This document shows, one piece after another, positions 8,004 through 64,000 of a stretch of 64,000 nucleotides of DNA (its first letter is position 1; the number at the start of each line of letters is the position of its first letter). The notes below the pieces were generated by a model. It did no database searches. It had not been told where the DNA came from and was given only the letters and a program-made list of their open reading frames with translations. The stretch is from an uncultured Psychroflexus sp. (GTDB taxonomy: Bacteria > Bacteroidota > Bacteroidia > Flavobacteriales > Flavobacteriaceae). The position numbers and the translations under genes were made by a program. The DNA lies in NCBI GenBank assembly GCA_913062845.1, contig CAJXVZ010000011.1:1-64000 (forward strand). The letters run 5' to 3'.

Positions 8004-8962
8004 TAGAGCAGTTTTTTAAATACAAGTATTCAAAGACTAAAACCTATTTGTTTTATTTAGGTGCTTTTTTATTTTGCTTTTTTAATACTAATGCTCAGCA
8101 AGTGCCTCACTACGCGCAGTACATGTATAATACACAAGTATTAAATCCTGCATTTGTAGGTTTGCGGTCTGATTTTAACGCTACTTTATTATCACGAGGT
8201 CAATGGGTAAATGTCGATGGCGCACCTCAAACCACCACTTTTTCAGTAAACACGAGATTAAATTCAGGTTTTGGTCTTGGTGCCGTTGTTATAAGCGATC
8301 AAATTGGTCTTCTAAATAATACCAACACAAGCTTAAATGTATCCTATACTATCCCTACCTCTCAAAATGGAAGACTGGCTCTAGGCTTAAAGGGTGGTCT
8401 TGGTTTTTACAATAATGATTTGGCAAGTGGAATAACTGTAGATAATGAAGTCTATGCTTCTACAACCGGAGAGTTTTTTGATCTTGGTTTTGGTATGCTT
8501 TACAGCACAAACAAGTTTTATGTCGGTTTATCTGCTATGAATTTATTTGAATCACCGATGTTCTTCCTGGATGAAAGCCAATCGACAATTAAAGGTTTGG
8601 AACGCGCAAATTATTTTTTGACCGGTGGAACTGTTTTTGAACTTTCGAGGTTTGGTGACATCAAATTCCTGCCTTCTACGATGATAAAATACACACCTAC
8701 TTTACCAATTTCCATTGACCTGAATGCTAACTTCAGGTTTAATAATATTTTTGAAGTTGGTGTATCTTATCGACATCAAAACTCAGTCAGCGCCATGGCA
8801 TCGGTCATTTTATATAACAGGATACGTATTGGTTATGCTTATGAGAACTACTTTACCACAGCGGTTCAGAATTTGAATACACACGAAATTATTCTACGTG
8901 TAGACCTTAAACTCAATCGAAAAAACAAATGGTTGTTTTTGGATTGTTGTAGTTATAAATAA
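8000..8962 (+). CDS. PorP/SprF family T9SS outer-membrane protein
   Basis: The 320-residue protein has a hydrophobic export signal ending near NTNAQ, followed by the family hallmark HYAQYMYNTQVLNPAFVG. The rest is a predicted beta-barrel with alternating strands. PorP/SprF proteins often sit directly downstream of a type B sorted giant protein and help its secretion or surface anchoring, and this pair fits: the genes overlap in an ATGA and must be cotranscribed and translationally coupled. The protein ends in KNKWLFLDCCSYK. The inferred role is as the dedicated partner of the adhesin encoded upstream. Confidence 0.93.
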   Translation: MIEQFFKYKYSKTKTYLFYLGAFLFCFFNTNAQQVPHYAQYMYNTQVLNPAFVGLRSDFNATLLSRGQWVNVDGAPQTTTFSVNTRLNSGFGLGAVVISDQIGLLNNTNTSLNVSYTIPTSQNGRLALGLKGGLGFYNNDLASGITVDNEVYASTTGEFFDLGFGMLYSTNKFYVGLSAMNLFESPMFFLDESQSTIKGLERANYFLTGGTVFELSRFGDIKFLPSTMIKYTPTLPISIDLNANFRFNNIFEVGVSYRHQNSVSAMASVILYNRIRIGYAYENYFTTAVQNLNTHEIILRVDLKLNRKNKWLFLDCCSYK

Positions 8963-57713: not shown

Positions 57714-58835
57714 TTAAAATTTCGTCACACCTTCTGTTGTGAGGGTTTTGATGAAAGCCAAAAGGTCAGCCTGTTCTTGCTTTGTGAGTTCTAAGGGTTC
57801 GAGCATCTTGGCTTTCTGAGGTCGTTTTCTCGTTGTATCTTTTTTGAAATACCTGGGACTTACAGGCATGGGATTCCCTAAATTGTAATAGGTGATCACA
57901 TCTTTCAAAGTTTTGAAAAACCCTGTGTGCATCCATGGTCCTGTCATTGAAACTTCCCGTAAAGTTGGTGTTCTGAATTTTCCGATGTCGTTTTTATCTC
58001 CTGTGAAATAATATAAACCCAGATCTTCATTTTTGGTTCCAAAGTGACCTAAACCATCATTGTGAAATTGATTATCACTAAAATACGGTGTATTATGGCA
58101 ATTAATGCATTGGGCTTTTGTTCTGAACAAGTGCAAACCCCGAACTTCACTGTCTGTAAATAGTTCAGATTTACCCGAAATGAATTTATCGAACTTTGAA
58201 GGTGGACTTACAATTTGTCTTTCAAAAACGGCAATGGCCTTTTGAATATTTTGCATATTGATTTGGTCCTCACCGAATGCCTTTTCAAACAGCTCCTGAT
58301 ATTTTGGTAAATCCTGAATGGTCTTAACTGCTATAGGCAGTTTTTCATTCATTTCAACAGGGTCTGCTATAGGAAACATAGCCTGGTGTTCAAGACTTAG
58401 AGCTCTTCCATCCCAAAAAAGTTTCTCAGCATAGGCAGCATTCAGAATGGTCATGGCATTACGCTTACCTGTTTGTTCGTCGTGACCAAAGGAACGCTCC
58501 TCATGATCGGTCCAGCCTTTTGAAGGTACATGACAAGTCGCGCATGACACCTCATTACTTTTGGAAAGCCTTCTTTCAAAAAACAAGGCTCTGCCGAGAT
58601 CATATTTTTCGGTTGTGTAGGGATTATCTTTATTTTCATCCAATCCAGGAAGAACGCCAATATCCTCAAAACTATCTTTATCGATACTTTCGTGTAATTC
58701 CGGCTCAGGCCATAGTGAATAATCTCCACTGCTATAGGCAGCTCTTAAACCTTCAACAGACTCATAGTCCGGGTTTTTATCTTCCTGACAGGACCAAAAA
58801 AACGTAATAATAACTAAAACAAGAATCTTCTTCAT
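57714..58835 (-). CDS. dihaem cytochrome-c peroxidase / MauG-like lipoprotein
   Basis: The 373-residue protein has a lipoprotein signal (ITFFWSCQED) and two c-type haem motifs: SCATCHVPSKGW (about residue 98) and QCINCHNTPYF (about 247). Other family parts are NAMTILNAAYAEKLFWDGRA and FRTPTLREVSMTGPWMHTG. Classical members reduce hydrogen peroxide; MauG/MbnH-type relatives oxidise protein tryptophans. It is the last gene of the SusC-SusD-lipoprotein operon, 6 bp after the lipoprotein gene, so its substrate may be tied to that uptake system. Confidence 0.92.
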   Translation of the reverse strand: MKKILVLVIITFFWSCQEDKNPDYESVEGLRAAYSSGDYSLWPEPELHESIDKDSFEDIGVLPGLDENKDNPYTTEKYDLGRALFFERRLSKSNEVSCATCHVPSKGWTDHEERSFGHDEQTGKRNAMTILNAAYAEKLFWDGRALSLEHQAMFPIADPVEMNEKLPIAVKTIQDLPKYQELFEKAFGEDQINMQNIQKAIAVFERQIVSPPSKFDKFISGKSELFTDSEVRGLHLFRTKAQCINCHNTPYFSDNQFHNDGLGHFGTKNEDLGLYYFTGDKNDIGKFRTPTLREVSMTGPWMHTGFFKTLKDVITYYNLGNPMPVSPRYFKKDTTRKRPQKAKMLEPLELTKQEQADLLAFIKTLTTEGVTKF

Positions 58836-58841
58836 AAATCA

Positions 58842-60356
58842 TCAAAACTCAAAGTAATTTGCACAATCTTCATTTAACAGCGGTGGATCGTCAGATACAC
58901 TTTCTGAATAGATAAACACTTTTTTCTCTGCATTTTCACTTCCACCAATAACTGTTTCATCTGCAATAAGTGTCACAAACATTTCCCATCTGTTCTCTGT
59001 GGCATTAAACTCGTAAGTACCACTACCACAAACAGGTATATTGTATTGTACTTCTACATCATTTTCATCTACCAAAAATACTAAAGTTTGTGCGATTACC
59101 CTAACGGATCCCTGATCGGGATTATTGCCGTTTTCAGGGAAAAATTCTATAGATTCCATTTGATTGTAAGCAGGAGATAATGCACTTGCACCATTGTAGA
59201 ATCTTCTGAGATTAAAAGGGTTGGTGCCTATAATATTTCCATTAGGATTGGCTATAATATTTCTGAAGCCTATTTTATATTTATGGTAACCCTGACCATT
59301 GTCAAACTCAGATCCCGGATCAACATCTACCGGTCTTGTAAAGGTGGCAAAATCTGCCCATTCGCACGCCAGATCATCATCTGCATCAAAATACCAGGCC
59401 TTGCCAAAAGTGCGGTGAAAGATATTATTGGCATTATACCAGTTTGACGCCGGATCTCCTGTTCTGGTAATGGTTTCTTGCGGTGTGGTAGCTACAATCA
59501 AAGAATTGCCCTGGCGCTCAAAACCCGGATCGTTCACATCAATCAGATTAATGTTTAAGGTTGCTCCGAAATTTGGTGCGTCCTCAGTGAGACTCAAGGT
59601 GTAAGATAGGTTTTTACCTAAACCCTGAATAGACGATTGATTAATATCAAACTGAAATTCTGCTGCAAGACCTTCATCACAGGGAAACTGGATGAATTCT
59701 GTATTAAGGAAATCCAAACCTTCAATTTCTGTCTGACTAACCAGTTGATCGAAAATCACATCAAAGCTTACACTTTCACCGGCGTTTCCATTCAGGTTGA
59801 AATTTTGTTCTTCTAAAGCATAAGTTACCGGTTGTGTGTTACCAATATTTAGTACAAACTCATCCAATTGCAAAATACTTCTATCGTAGCCAATACTGAA
59901 TTCCGGGTTTGAGACTGAGGTCAATTTAAACCTGATAGACTCTTGATTCAAATTTTCAAACCTGGTTTTAGGCAAAACATAAATCGTATCGCTGGGTTGA
60001 GTTTTTGAAAACTGAAGCTGAAGATTTTCCGGAAAAATTTCAAAATTCTGTTGAATGAAATCACTTGAAAAAACTGTTTCAAAATCAGCAGTTACGGACT
60101 GTTCCAATTCATCTCTGGAGCTGGCGATCACCGGTATCTTCAGCGTGTCTCTTTTTTGAAGGGTGTATTCACCTACCTCCTGTGCAGAAAGTGTTTGTTG
60201 CGGGAACTCCAGAATATCGCCATTTTGCGTCAGTTTGAAGCTGAAACGTACAAAACTTTCTTCGAGGGTAGTTTCCGGCAAGGCCTTATCATCTTCACAG
60301 GATGTAAAACCAAACATTATGGTAAGCAACAATATGTAAATATCAGTAGCCTTCAT
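58842..60356 (-). CDS. lipoprotein of a SusCD operon, unknown family
   Basis: About 504 residues from the ATG at 60356. The lipobox is FGFTSCEDD, followed by acidic residues that fit surface export. The rest is beta-rich with many Asn/Asp and suggests several Ig-like domains (ADFETVFSSDFIQQNF; VSFDVIFDQLVSQTE) and a C-terminal domain (CEWADFATFTRPVDVD). I do not recognise a named family; position is that of SusE/F-type surface glycan-binding lipoproteins. Its start overlaps the susD stop by 14 bp. An in-frame start at 60419 is less likely. Confidence 0.8.
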   Translation of the reverse strand: MKATDIYILLLTIMFGFTSCEDDKALPETTLEESFVRFSFKLTQNGDILEFPQQTLSAQEVGEYTLQKRDTLKIPVIASSRDELEQSVTADFETVFSSDFIQQNFEIFPENLQLQFSKTQPSDTIYVLPKTRFENLNQESIRFKLTSVSNPEFSIGYDRSILQLDEFVLNIGNTQPVTYALEEQNFNLNGNAGESVSFDVIFDQLVSQTEIEGLDFLNTEFIQFPCDEGLAAEFQFDINQSSIQGLGKNLSYTLSLTEDAPNFGATLNINLIDVNDPGFERQGNSLIVATTPQETITRTGDPASNWYNANNIFHRTFGKAWYFDADDDLACEWADFATFTRPVDVDPGSEFDNGQGYHKYKIGFRNIIANPNGNIIGTNPFNLRRFYNGASALSPAYNQMESIEFFPENGNNPDQGSVRVIAQTLVFLVDENDVEVQYNIPVCGSGTYEFNATENRWEMFVTLIADETVIGGSENAEKKVFIYSESVSDDPPLLNEDCANYFEF

Positions 60357-61809
60357 TCTGGACCATATTTTCGTTGATGAGTATAGAGCTCTGCGGGATT
60401 GGCAGAATAAATCTGTCATTAGGATAATCTAATTGACAAATGCTGATGTTGCAACCATCATTTCTCACAATAGATTGCTCATTTCTGGCCAAATCAAAAA
60501 GCAAGTGACCTTCAAAAGCCAACTCTCGTCTACGCTCCAGTAAAATTTCATCGATTAAGGCCTGACCCGACAAATTGAGCAATTCTGCATTAGGGTCGGC
60601 TCTTTCTCTGATGCTCTGCAGGTCTGTTAAGGCCTGCTGATCTTGGTTGAGCCTGGCGTGAGCTTCTGCCTTATTCAATATGACCTCAGAGAGTCTGATC
60701 ATGATCGCGCCATCATCATCTACATATTTTTGCGTATAAATATAAGGTCGGTCTTCAACACCTGTTCCTGTTTGTGTTGGAATATTCAACGTAACCAGCA
60801 TGCCGTCTTCTCCTCTGATATCGCCGTCTTCATAAAGAGAAACAAGGTCGTTTGAGGCTGTATATCTTTGAAAATCTGCAAGTTCTCCATTGAGAAAAGC
60901 ATAACCATAGAATTCAGAGACACTGGATGAAATATTGGTGCCATCATCACCGGTAACCGGTGGAGTAAATTCAAATAATGTTTCAGAAATCGGTTGAAGC
61001 GCTGTCCATTGTTCTACAAATAATTCCCTTGGTGTCAACGCGATACCTGCATTTAAAACATCAGTTGCAACAGCGATACAATTTTCCCAATCTCCCTTGT
61101 AAAGGTATAATCTGGATAGCAAACCCCTGACATTGTTGACATTAAAATAACTGGTCTCAGGGCCTGGCAGTGCAGGATTATCTGTAAATAAGGATAAAGC
61201 TTCAAGAAAATCCGCTTCAATAAGGTCATAGGTTTCTGCTACTGATTCTCTAGCGGGAAAATCCTCACCGGCTACTAAAGTCCTTGTGTTGTAAACTATT
61301 CCCGGATGCTCAGCATTTGCTGAAAAAGGATAAGTTTGAGCGAATAATCTTGATAATTCAAAATGTACACTTGCCCGCATCGCTAAGATTTCTGCACGAA
61401 TCTGTTGCTCTAAAGACGCGTCAAGTTCCGGCACATTAGCCATGTTTTCCAAAATAAGATTCAAAGCATTAATAATACTATAAGCATTTTCATAATAAGA
61501 TGAAAAAGTACCCTCGTCTGATTGCTCCTGAAAGGCATAAACCGGCTGAAACTGATCGGGCACATCTGCAATTCCTTGCTGATTCGGCGCAAATTTTACA
61601 TTTCCTGCAACGGCATCTGCATAAACAAAGGAAAGACCAGAATATAGTGCTTCATACTCTGCATAAACGCCACTAACAGCTTGTAAAAGCCCTTCAACTG
61701 AAGAAAACTGCTGAGATATGGAAACCTGTTCTACAGGTTCACGATTCAGGAAGTCTTCACACGAAGTAAAAACCATAATAAGAGCTGATATGTAAAAAAA
61801 TCTTTTCAT
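60343..61809 (-). CDS. RagB/SusD family nutrient uptake outer-membrane lipoprotein
   Basis: The protein (488 aa) has a lipoprotein signal (IMVFTSCEDFLNREPVEQVS, residues 11-30) and the SusD tetratricopeptide-like start (FSSVEGLLQAVSGVYAEYEAL), AEILAMRASVHFELSRLFAQTYPF, IRLSEVILNKAEAHARLNQ and ILLERRRELAFEGHLLFDLAR. SusD caps the SusC barrel and binds the nutrient at the cell surface. It shares one base with the susC stop (TAATG), and the lipoprotein gene follows with a 14-bp overlap. Confidence 0.95.
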   Translation of the reverse strand: MKRFFYISALIMVFTSCEDFLNREPVEQVSISQQFSSVEGLLQAVSGVYAEYEALYSGLSFVYADAVAGNVKFAPNQQGIADVPDQFQPVYAFQEQSDEGTFSSYYENAYSIINALNLILENMANVPELDASLEQQIRAEILAMRASVHFELSRLFAQTYPFSANAEHPGIVYNTRTLVAGEDFPARESVAETYDLIEADFLEALSLFTDNPALPGPETSYFNVNNVRGLLSRLYLYKGDWENCIAVATDVLNAGIALTPRELFVEQWTALQPISETLFEFTPPVTGDDGTNISSSVSEFYGYAFLNGELADFQRYTASNDLVSLYEDGDIRGEDGMLVTLNIPTQTGTGVEDRPYIYTQKYVDDDGAIMIRLSEVILNKAEAHARLNQDQQALTDLQSIRERADPNAELLNLSGQALIDEILLERRRELAFEGHLLFDLARNEQSIVRNDGCNISICQLDYPNDRFILPIPQSSILINENMVQNEGY

Positions 61810-64000
61810 TAAAATCCAAGGTTAAATCCACAGGTGATGGTTCTCATTTCAGGATAAGTGAAGCGCAATTCTTCTACATCATTGCCTGGTCCTGCATTTT
61901 TATACCAGTAGGCCAGATTGTCGGCATTCACAAATATACTAAATCTGTCGATGTTCAGTTTTTCAATGAGTTTATTTTCTATGTTGTAGTTGATGCTCAA
62001 ATTTTGAAACTTGATATAACTCACCTCATAAACATACTTGGTCGAATTTCTTATAATCGGCATAGAAGGATCAAATCTGGAGTTTCTGGCAATATCTCCG
62101 GGTTGACGCCAAACGTCTCCGGTTTCAGCAATCATATTCCGCGTGGTAAATAATTCATCCGTAGCTTCCAGACTTCTGTCCATAAGGAAGTCACCGCCAT
62201 AGGAATATAAGAATCTTGCGGTGATATTTAGGTTTTTCCCGATTTGAAATTGATGTTGAAAGCTCCCAAAATAGCTTGGAAGACGATCGCCAATAATTTC
62301 CCAGTCTACATTATCAAAATTTTCCCTGTAAGTTATACCATCATAAAGTTCACCATCTTTACGGTAAAGGTTACGGCCTGTTGCGGGATCAACACCTGCC
62401 CATTCCACACCCCAGATGGCTGATGTACTCGCGCCAACACGTAGTGCAGAAGCTCTTTCTGAAGAAGAAAACTCAGAACTTAAATTCTCTACAGACAATA
62501 CTTTATTTCTGTTTCTGGAATAGTTGGCCCTGAATCTCCAGCTGAACTTGTCCTTGTCTACAAGTAATGCATTAACTGCCAGTTCAATTCCGGTATTTTC
62601 CATGCTTCCTACATTTGCCTGAACATTGGTAAAGCCGGATTCGGGAACAATATTAGTTGATGAGATGATATCTGTAATTTCATCTCTGTAAACTTCTGCG
62701 GTAAAATCTAACCTGTTGTCAAAAAGTTTGATATCAATACCTGTGTTGAATTTTATATTCCTTTCCCAGGATAAGTTCGGGTTTGGCGCACTAGCAGGAA
62801 AAGCAGAATCGTTTGTATTATATCCACTTAGATCGTTAATATCTATATTATACAATCCTTGAGCCCTGAAGCTGCCAATACGTGAATTTCCTGATGAACC
62901 ATAACTGACACGCCATCTTAAAAATTTCAGTTTTTTAAAACCTTTCATGAATTTCTCTTTGGTAAGCACCCAACTTGCGCCTAAAGCTCCGTTGTAGGCT
63001 GCATTCACATCACCTCCAAAGGCTGAGCTTTCATCCTGCCTGATGCTACCTGTAAGGAAATATTTTTTATCAAAATCATAGTTCAGTTGTGTAAAGAAGG
63101 AACGTCTTGCGTTTTCTGAGGTAAAGCTGTTTATAGCAACATCATTGGCGTCCTCAAAGCTGTTATTCTTGTTTTGTTCTATAAAACCACTGCCTAAAAT
63201 ACGGCGATTGGTGTTTTTTTGTTCATTTATTTCTGTTCCTATTAAGCCGTCCAGATTATGCTTTTCATTAAAGGTATTTTGATAAGAAGCTGTGGCGTTT
63301 AAAGTAAAGTTCTCGACTCCTCTTTCAAACCTGATCTTTCTGCCCCAATTCGGATAGGTAACTCCATCAACTTCAAAACTACCACTAAGCCTGCCTGAGG
63401 AGTTATCACCTGAGAAATACCGGTCCTGTACTTTATCAGTATAATCCAAACCTCCAATCACCCTGGCTGTCCAGTGCTCATTGAACTTATAGCTTAAATT
63501 CAGGCTGGTGATCAAACCAATGGTCTCTGCTTCTGATAGGTTTTGTTCCAACACGGCTAAAGGGTTCCCAAGAACACCGGTTTCGATAATGCTAAAGTTA
63601 CCGTCTTCATCAAAGGGTGATACATTGGGCGGTAGCGGAAAACTAAACAATTGATTGGGGTTGCTCTTTTGAACCAGTGAAGGTGAAAAACTTAAACTGG
63701 CGGAAAAGCCTTTATGTTGATATCCAAGATTAAGATTTCCCCTTAAATTTTGAAATTCATTTCCTACCTGAGCCTCATCATTAACAAGGTAAGAAAGAGA
63801 ACCTCTGTAATTGAATTTTCCTTTTTTTTGAGATATATTGAATTGTGTCCGGCTAAAAAAACCACTTTCATTCATCAGGTCGAACCAGTTGGTATCTGTT
63901 GTTGAAGAACCAGCTAATGCTGTTGCGCTTTCTAAAGTTTCGCCGGTGTTCAGATAATATTCAACAAGTAGGTTATGGTATTCCGGACCACTGAGGAAAT
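61809..64000 (-). CDS. SusC/RagA family TonB-linked outer-membrane protein (5' end outside window)
   Basis: The frame is open to the right edge of the window, so the N-terminal signal, carboxypeptidase-like domain and part of the plug are missing. The visible part, about 730 residues, begins in a region (SGPEYHNLLVEYYLNTGE) typical of SusC plug-barrel junctions, with NTDWQD-like TNWFDLMN. It continues with barrel strands to YPEMRTITCGFNLGF. KEKFMKGFKKLKFLRWRVSYGSSGNSRIG-type sequence is typical. It imports nutrients with SusD, using TonB energy. The substrate is unknown. Confidence 0.95.
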   Translation of the reverse strand, partial: FLSGPEYHNLLVEYYLNTGETLESATALAGSSTTDTNWFDLMNESGFFSRTQFNISQKKGKFNYRGSLSYLVNDEAQVGNEFQNLRGNLNLGYQHKGFSASLSFSPSLVQKSNPNQLFSFPLPPNVSPFDEDGNFSIIETGVLGNPLAVLEQNLSEAETIGLITSLNLSYKFNEHWTARVIGGLDYTDKVQDRYFSGDNSSGRLSGSFEVDGVTYPNWGRKIRFERGVENFTLNATASYQNTFNEKHNLDGLIGTEINEQKNTNRRILGSGFIEQNKNNSFEDANDVAINSFTSENARRSFFTQLNYDFDKKYFLTGSIRQDESSAFGGDVNAAYNGALGASWVLTKEKFMKGFKKLKFLRWRVSYGSSGNSRIGSFRAQGLYNIDINDLSGYNTNDSAFPASAPNPNLSWERNIKFNTGIDIKLFDNRLDFTAEVYRDEITDIISSTNIVPESGFTNVQANVGSMENTGIELAVNALLVDKDKFSWRFRANYSRNRNKVLSVENLSSEFSSSERASALRVGASTSAIWGVEWAGVDPATGRNLYRKDGELYDGITYRENFDNVDWEIIGDRLPSYFGSFQHQFQIGKNLNITARFLYSYGGDFLMDRSLEATDELFTTRNMIAETGDVWRQPGDIARNSRFDPSMPIIRNSTKYVYEVSYIKFQNLSINYNIENKLIEKLNIDRFSIFVNADNLAYWYKNAGPGNDVEELRFTYPEMRTITCGFNLGF

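Follow-up and report, generated by a model that had tools for sequence, protein, structure and literature searches.

The SusCD operon and its conservation

The window analysed here is a stretch of 64,000 nucleotides from an uncultured Psychroflexus sp. (contig CAJXVZ010000011.1, positions 1 to 64,000), and its end is occupied by a four-gene operon on the minus strand. The operon encodes a SusC/RagA-like TonB-dependent transporter (61809..64000, cut by the window end), a SusD/RagB-like lipoprotein of 488 residues (60343..61809), a predicted surface lipoprotein of 504 residues, here called LIP (58842..60356, counted from the lipoprotein start), and a dihaem MauG/MbnH-like enzyme of 373 residues, here called PER (57714..58835). 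An earlier interpretation made from the letters of the DNA (the sequence-only reading) had described one tightly packed operon, and this was confirmed: the SusC and SusD genes overlap by 1 bp, the 3′ end of the SusD gene overlaps the start of LIP by 14 bp, LIP and PER are separated by 6 bp, and the gene order is kept in 70 of the 77 loci described below.

The transporter shows CarbopepD_reg_2, plug and barrel domains, and its in-window part matched TIGR04056 (8e-103, 345.5 bits, the cut-off for the whole protein being 368.25). The contig extends to 67090, past the window end, and SusC is complete on it, from 61809 to about 64868 (1019 residues in the mechanical list of open reading frames (ORFs), with an uncertain start given there as TTG). 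No STN domain was listed for this SusC; one is present on SusC of the one relative tested. The second protein carries a SusD_RagB domain (PF07980, 7e-24), so that a SusC-type receptor is directly followed by a SusD-type lipoprotein, as in SusC-SusD uptake systems. PER matched CCP_MauG (1.5e-57), and comparisons of LIP with Pfam, NCBIfam and the PDB sequences gave no match at the cut-offs applied. Pfam revealed no hydrolase among the four genes, and no glycoside hydrolase, lyase, sulphatase or carbohydrate esterase was found among them and the conserved neighbours tested, an annotation that leaves most flanking ORFs of the 77 loci outside. The lack of a glycan enzyme in the four genes, already pointed out in the sequence-only reading, makes it reasonable to think of a cargo other than a plain polysaccharide.

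A search of the LIP alignment against contigs of 84,980 species gave 77 loci from named genomes, with loci from genomes found in two scans counted once. They belong mainly to Flavobacteriaceae, together with some metagenome-assembled genomes (MAGs) labelled Fulvivirga, Prolixibacteraceae, Bacteroidales, Chitinophaga or unclassified, and the four-gene set occurs in Bacteroidota of sea and soil. PER follows SusC-SusD-LIP in 70 loci, of which 68 are intact and two have a gene of about 210 codons between LIP and PER; a Met-zincin-type (DUF4953) gene takes the PER place in five, and the other two stop at a contig edge. Since this order recurs in 70 of the 77 named loci and in three further ones (L200, L202 and L203), all with the four genes, it is more than chance. 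A start codon allowing the exact 14-bp SusD/LIP overlap is present in 74 of 76 loci, and FecR, with an extracytoplasmic function (ECF) sigma factor, is encoded upstream of SusC in 60 of the 77. The LIP-PER spacing, estimated by assuming the N-terminal length seen in the window, is at most 30 bp in 39 of 70 loci, 57-334 bp in 29, and above 670 bp in the two with the extra gene. LIP was found in 5 of 27 genomes of the genus (the window's own included) and in 7 of 199 of the family (8 with the weak match G130, E 3e-4 in a 184-residue frame, which was dropped from the counts). A class-wide draw yielded LIP in 3 of 395 genomes, and the system is therefore rare and mainly found in Flavobacteriaceae.

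The dihaem enzyme and the lipoprotein

The haem motifs of PER, CATCH (98-102) and CINCH (243-247), are invariant together with W141, E161 and Y317 in an alignment of 70 sequences (the window and 69 loci; L053 was dropped, as its PER is split into two ORFs). H118 aligns with a histidine of bacterial cytochrome c peroxidases (CcPs), which we take to be catalytic, and is kept in 68 of the 70; the best PDB sequence matches of PER are bacterial CcPs. By CcP numbering, W141 may be the interhaem tryptophan. It aligns with a tryptophan of BthA, though BthA is said to have serine at the interhaem place in the part of PMC6405878 consulted. According to the alignment, Y317 occupies the sixth-ligand place of the second haem, where all 70 PERs have tyrosine and classical CcPs have methionine as the sixth ligand of the high-potential haem. 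Y317 aligns with a tyrosine of BthA in a comparison that does not map BthA numbering residue by residue. The same part of PMC6405878 gives Tyr-His ligation and high-valent states for BthA and MauG, and Met-His ligation for CcPs. On these grounds PER falls by sequence with the MauG/BthA type and is predicted to act as a strong oxidant, not simply as a peroxidase.

The kinship with MauG/CcP and MbnH proposed in the sequence-only reading was supported. The MbnH-family model TIGR04039 scored best (252.2 bits) and PER stayed below its cut-off of 362.85, as did two MbnP-neighbouring enzymes (226 and 270 bits); the MauG model gave 223 bits, under a cut-off of 444. The enzymes of two relatives (L011 and L132) scored slightly better on the MauG model than on the MbnH model, also below the cut-off. 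PER had been taken for a lipoprotein, which holds for the window's sequence, where a lipobox is present, and not for the family as a whole: a simple pattern, with misses (e.g. L090) and doubtful matches (e.g. L073), found one in 26 of 70 PERs, the window included, and none in the other 44. An N-terminal extension with Y34 and W42 is common to LIP- and DUF4876-type enzymes, and MbnP-linked ones lack it. In a quick tree of 26 of the 71 LIP-type enzymes (the window, 24 of 69 loci and L146), all 6 DUF4876-type and 22 MbnP-type enzymes, with three identical pairs among the last and a program warning of long branches, the LIP-type enzymes formed one group (SH-aLRT 100). Six enzymes from or like a TonB receptor-DUF4876-DUF6850 cassette stood beside this group, and the MbnP-linked enzymes lay on the other side.

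PER-like matches at 1e-40 or better were found in 125 of the 199 family genomes, in distinct score classes. Among the best 30 enzyme loci the neighbouring gene encodes LIP in 7, DUF6850 in 4, MbnP in 17 and another protein in 2 (L111, which adjoins a DUF4876 set on the opposite strand, and L114, whose contig is short); several of the matches were to models that had the matching sequence in their own building set. Just 2 of the 11 loci read with lower-scoring enzymes have an MbnP neighbour, so lipoprotein pairing is not universal; several adjoin a protein of about 500 residues with a single haem motif. The sequence-only reading had named a promoter of its own and unrelated neighbours in relatives as what would speak against joining PER to the operon. 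This mostly fails to appear, as the seven best-scoring PERs of the 199 family genomes all follow LIP. What stays of it is that more distant enzymes lie beside DUF6850, MbnP and other genes, and that the longer spacings in 29 of 70 loci leave room for a promoter.

By its sequence, LIP is a new family. Its AlphaFold model (mean predicted local distance difference test, pLDDT, 85.8; 89.9 for the C-terminal domain folded alone) suggests two Ig/Calx-beta-like domains (about 32-294) and a small C-terminal domain resembling a beta-barrel (about 295-504). The N-terminal part ranked highest with the NCX1 Calx-beta tandem (CBD12; Z up to 11.5, root-mean-square deviation (rmsd) 7.8), and further comparisons gave Z 8.7 with Bacteroides 4dqa (rmsd 3.0, 107 residues aligned) and Z 9.8 with 3n91, with poor superposition (rmsd 20.8). 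We take 4dqa and similar Bacteroides proteins to be SusE-position proteins; PF08522, sought as a mark of SusE-position/BT_3987-like lipoproteins, was matched by 1 of 78 LIP family members, weakly (E 0.052). The C-terminal domain had no Foldseek match at E 0.001, and its best VIA Z was 7.0; its weak rows came from small barrels, from lipocalins, from a Riemerella haemophore (E 0.029) and from accessory lipoproteins of Bacteroides, none of them a clear match. W321, W333, C331 and C498 do not vary across the 76 rows of the comparison, 71 from PER-type loci (the window and 70 loci) and 5 from protease-type loci, the contig-edge loci L040 and L066 having been dropped.

LIP had been described as rich in aromatic residues and without visible match to MbnP. 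The first point was not upheld, since its 12.5% of F+Y+W, with 4 tryptophans, is not notable beside 42 ORFs of the window, which average 11.4% (sd 3.7). The second was: LIP matched neither PF20243 nor TIGR04052 (MbnP), and its similarity to the MbnP profile covers only the signal region. There was no DUF4876 match either, and profile matching with a DUF4876 protein was limited to the N-terminal 54 residues. The candidates DUF4843, MbnP and DUF4876 were set aside for lack of sequence or profile support, and a search by sequence found no solved MbnP structure for comparison. At least two acidic residues (D/E) at positions +2 to +6 after the lipid cysteine are present in 74 of 78 LIPs, with CSKDDY in 42; such residues are a surface-export signal in the part of PMC5080379 consulted. 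Because this signal is so frequent in LIP and the lipobox is found in only the minority of PERs given above, LIP is predicted to face outward and PER to be periplasmic, on opposite faces of the outer membrane.

Enzyme replacement and genes around the operon

In five loci (L026, L075, L083, L087 and L089) the gene after LIP is of the Met-zincin type. Pfam assigns DUF5118-DUF5117-DUF4953 to the copies of L026 and L089, an HExxHxxGxxHN zinc motif was seen by eye in those of L075 and L087, the L083 copy is cut by a contig end, and a DUF4953 match is present in all five genomes. Their LIPs lie on one side of a branch in a quick tree (SH-aLRT 96). These genomes had no CCP_MauG match at 1e-5 and no PER match at 1e-10, an absence that is not final in MAGs, and on this evidence the system can do without PER. 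The genome of the contig-edge locus L040 does carry PER, at a contig start. The expectation that DUF5117/DUF4953 proteases are common in SusCD loci was not borne out by 15 sampled loci.

A protein with ELWxxDGT repeats of the type IX secretion system (T9SS) kind is encoded, at more than 100 bits, in 29 of the 77 loci, protease-type L089 among them; protease-type L075 has a contig-edge piece (56 bits). TIGR04534 repeats together with a T9SS tail are present in the five such proteins tested. The window's genome encodes its ELWxxDGT protein on another contig (C63, L101 7694-9163), where the neighbours are a gcvP-like gene, so named by eye, and a gene of 274 codons. In L203, of the same genus, homologues of these two genes (70% and 43% identity, respectively) are followed by ELWxxDGT-SusC-SusD-LIP-PER. 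The simplest reading is that the window's four-gene operon was relocated or replaced, with its ELWxxDGT gene left behind.

Directly upstream of SusC, just outside the window, lie remains of a T9SS sorting tail (L002 about 8050-8300, contig about 64950-65200), which share 36% identity across 59 residues with the tail of the adjoining FG-GAP/T9SS protein, itself cut by the contig end. A terminator-like hairpin was found upstream of SusC (L002 8034-8063); such hairpins were not above chance (4 vs 5.8 in shuffles). A Bacteroidota promoter pattern had 0 matches in L002 (0.76 expected), and generic promoter matches (30 vs 22.2 in shuffles) were not clearly above chance. hemD as a neighbour was not upheld, there being no HEMD match in L018 (Psychroflexus tropicus, the closest relative).

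Further observations concern single loci. A small family of proteins of about 210 residues recurs in or near the operons of L035, L047, L050, L065 and L082; copies lie at L035 11473-12114 and L082 11475-12107, in two cases the gene stands between LIP and PER, and the L082 copy had no significant Pfam match. The split PER of L053, and SusC of L069, also split into two ORFs, may reflect frameshifts or sequencing errors. A MAG listed in the window's genus (L199, G613; cf. L023) has a LIP far from those of the rest of the genus (profile score 660 vs 340-419 bits), for which transfer, contamination and misplacement are possible explanations. Elsewhere in the window's genome there is an MbnP-MbnH-like pair (PF20243 and a dihaem enzyme; L142, contig C40, 4919-6770), with an SBBP-repeat-like protein next to it. 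In L187 (1070-6007) and L190 (5264-10173) a lipoprotein of about 305 residues, a 661-residue protein without SusC match, an MbnP-like lipoprotein and a dihaem enzyme are encoded together, in an arrangement reminiscent of methanobactin-linked sets.

Possible targets of the enzyme

SusCD systems, which count among the major nutrient importers of Bacteroidota, are mostly interpreted from their hydrolases, as systems for glycans or peptides. The Sus and RagAB loci likewise combine SusC, SusD and a third lipoprotein in the SusE position, and the Ig-like part of the LIP model resembles 4dqa. They differ from the set described here, whose four genes include no glycan enzyme; a dihaem oxidant fills the enzyme place, with a Met-zincin in its stead in one lineage. 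The explanation that we tentatively favour, at somewhat less than even probability, is a ligand-responsive outer-membrane uptake module whose periplasmic PER oxidises imported cargo. SusC-SusD and LIP, as a surface lipoprotein in the SusE place, would capture the cargo, for which a peptide, a protein or a metal chelate is probable; in most species the ECF sigma/FecR pair would sense it through SusC; and PER, as a Tyr-type dihaem enzyme, would use peroxide to oxidise it on arrival. In one sister lineage the Met-zincin, a predicted protease, would take the place of PER. The conserved gene order, FecR upstream of SusC in most loci, the STN domain on SusC of the one relative tested and the tyrosine at the sixth-ligand place of PER speak for this reading. 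Action on imported cargo is favoured because a predicted protease can replace PER, because PER is predicted to be periplasmic, and because its nearest kin occur in TonB cassettes whose receptor/DUF4876 part is induced by iron starvation. In the part of PMC10434189 consulted, receptor/DUF4876 operons are raised 20.8-214.5 fold in P. gingivalis and 36.7-128 fold in B. thetaiotaomicron under low iron. The enzymes of the Flavobacteriaceae cassette are the closest to PER by the tree and by their extension, and a receptor and a lipoprotein likewise stand beside the enzyme. The window's operon is nevertheless not such a cassette: the one read in L132 has no SusD, and here there is no DUF6850 gene in the few bases between LIP and PER, and LIP has no DUF4876 match.

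Several points weigh against a cargo-oxidising PER. The replacement, which suggests that the enzyme works on imported material, rests on one lineage of five MAGs; DUF4953 genes occur elsewhere too, PER-type genomes included; and none of the 15 sampled loci has one beside SusC/SusD. Lack of oxygen as the reason for the replacement was rejected, as COX1 is present in 4 of the 5 protease-type genomes. The available part of PMC10434189 names no dihaem enzyme for the iron-regulated receptor/DUF4876 operons. The neighbours of the best 30 enzyme loci, 7 with LIP and 17 with MbnP, suggest equally well that the lipoprotein is the target. A narrower version of the favoured reading, with a MauG-type oxidant attacking an imported polypeptide or metal-protein and oxidation and proteolysis as interchangeable ways to open the same cargo, is unlikely; no such case was found in the literature searches reported here, which were confined to open-licence papers of PubMed Central (PMC).

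MbnH reportedly turns a tryptophan of MbnP into kynurenine. The sequence-only reading named a tryptophan oxidation of this kind in LIP as one possibility; it is weakened here, set back from leading idea and kept as the main rival, in which PER would modify an aromatic residue of LIP in the periplasm and the modified LIP would bind metal or cargo at the surface. That precedent and the proposal that a MauG-like enzyme modifies MopE (in the part of PMC3621798 consulted) keep it in this position, and we consider it rather unlikely, a little less so than the polypeptide version above. Like the MbnP-MbnH sets of methanotrophs with MbnT and FecIR-type regulators (and MopE/SACCP and CorA/CorB), the operon places a dihaem enzyme beside the gene of an exported partner, and some of those pairs have TonB receptors and FecI/FecR-like genes in their vicinity (same source). 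MbnH is also the family whose model PER matches best, and the two tryptophans and two cysteines of LIP are kept in every row. However, W321 and W333 are just as invariant (5/5) in the genomes without a CCP_MauG match, which is why the idea was demoted. The match of LIP to the MbnP profile in the signal region only, the few MbnP neighbours (by our own model) among the lower-scoring loci, and the predicted position of mature LIP and PER on opposite membrane faces also count against it. The operon differs from the methanotroph sets in its SusC-SusD transporter, in a LIP that cannot be recognised as MbnP, and in a PER that scores under the MbnH model cut-off and groups apart from the MbnP-linked enzymes in the tree.

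That PER is an ordinary periplasmic peroxidase, kept because the transporter or a metal cargo generates peroxide, would agree with the CCP_MauG fold, the CcP matches in PDB and the conservation of H118. On the contrary, tyrosine instead of methionine at the sixth-ligand place goes with high-valent chemistry in BthA and MauG (PMC6405878, in part), the enzymes form one tight group tied to one operon type, and a predicted protease can replace PER; this explanation appears doubtful, more so than the two just discussed. The likeness to MauG, the enzyme of TTQ biosynthesis, and to BthA lies in the aligned tyrosine; there is no methylamine dehydrogenase context here, and PER scores under the MauG cut-off. 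Least probable, and improbable in our judgement, is that the target would be the ELWxxDGT propeller-like protein of the same set, processed in the periplasm before T9SS export. Its genes accompany both enzyme types, and in the window's genome it sits where a same-genus genome keeps the whole set; yet 48 of the 77 loci, some cut by contig ends, have no such gene above 100 bits.

Altogether, the sequence-only reading is partly supported, and the sigma/anti-sigma genes, the ELWxxDGT protein, the replacement by a protease-type gene and the TonB/DUF4876 kin of the enzyme are observations beyond it. In the open-licence searches no papers were found on the SusC-SusD-LIP-PER set, on SusD combined with MauG or with cytochrome c peroxidase, on DUF4953 combined with SusC, or on ELWxxDGT. 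To our knowledge, the substrates of MauG/MbnH-like enzymes have been established in few cases, and the four-gene set offers a setting in which they can be tested, in species that are named and with the enzyme swap as a natural control. The conserved SusCD set, with a haem oxidant predicted to be of the high-valent kind and, in a sister lineage, a predicted protease in the same slot, points to a type of cargo and to a chemistry of its processing on which these searches turned up no paper.

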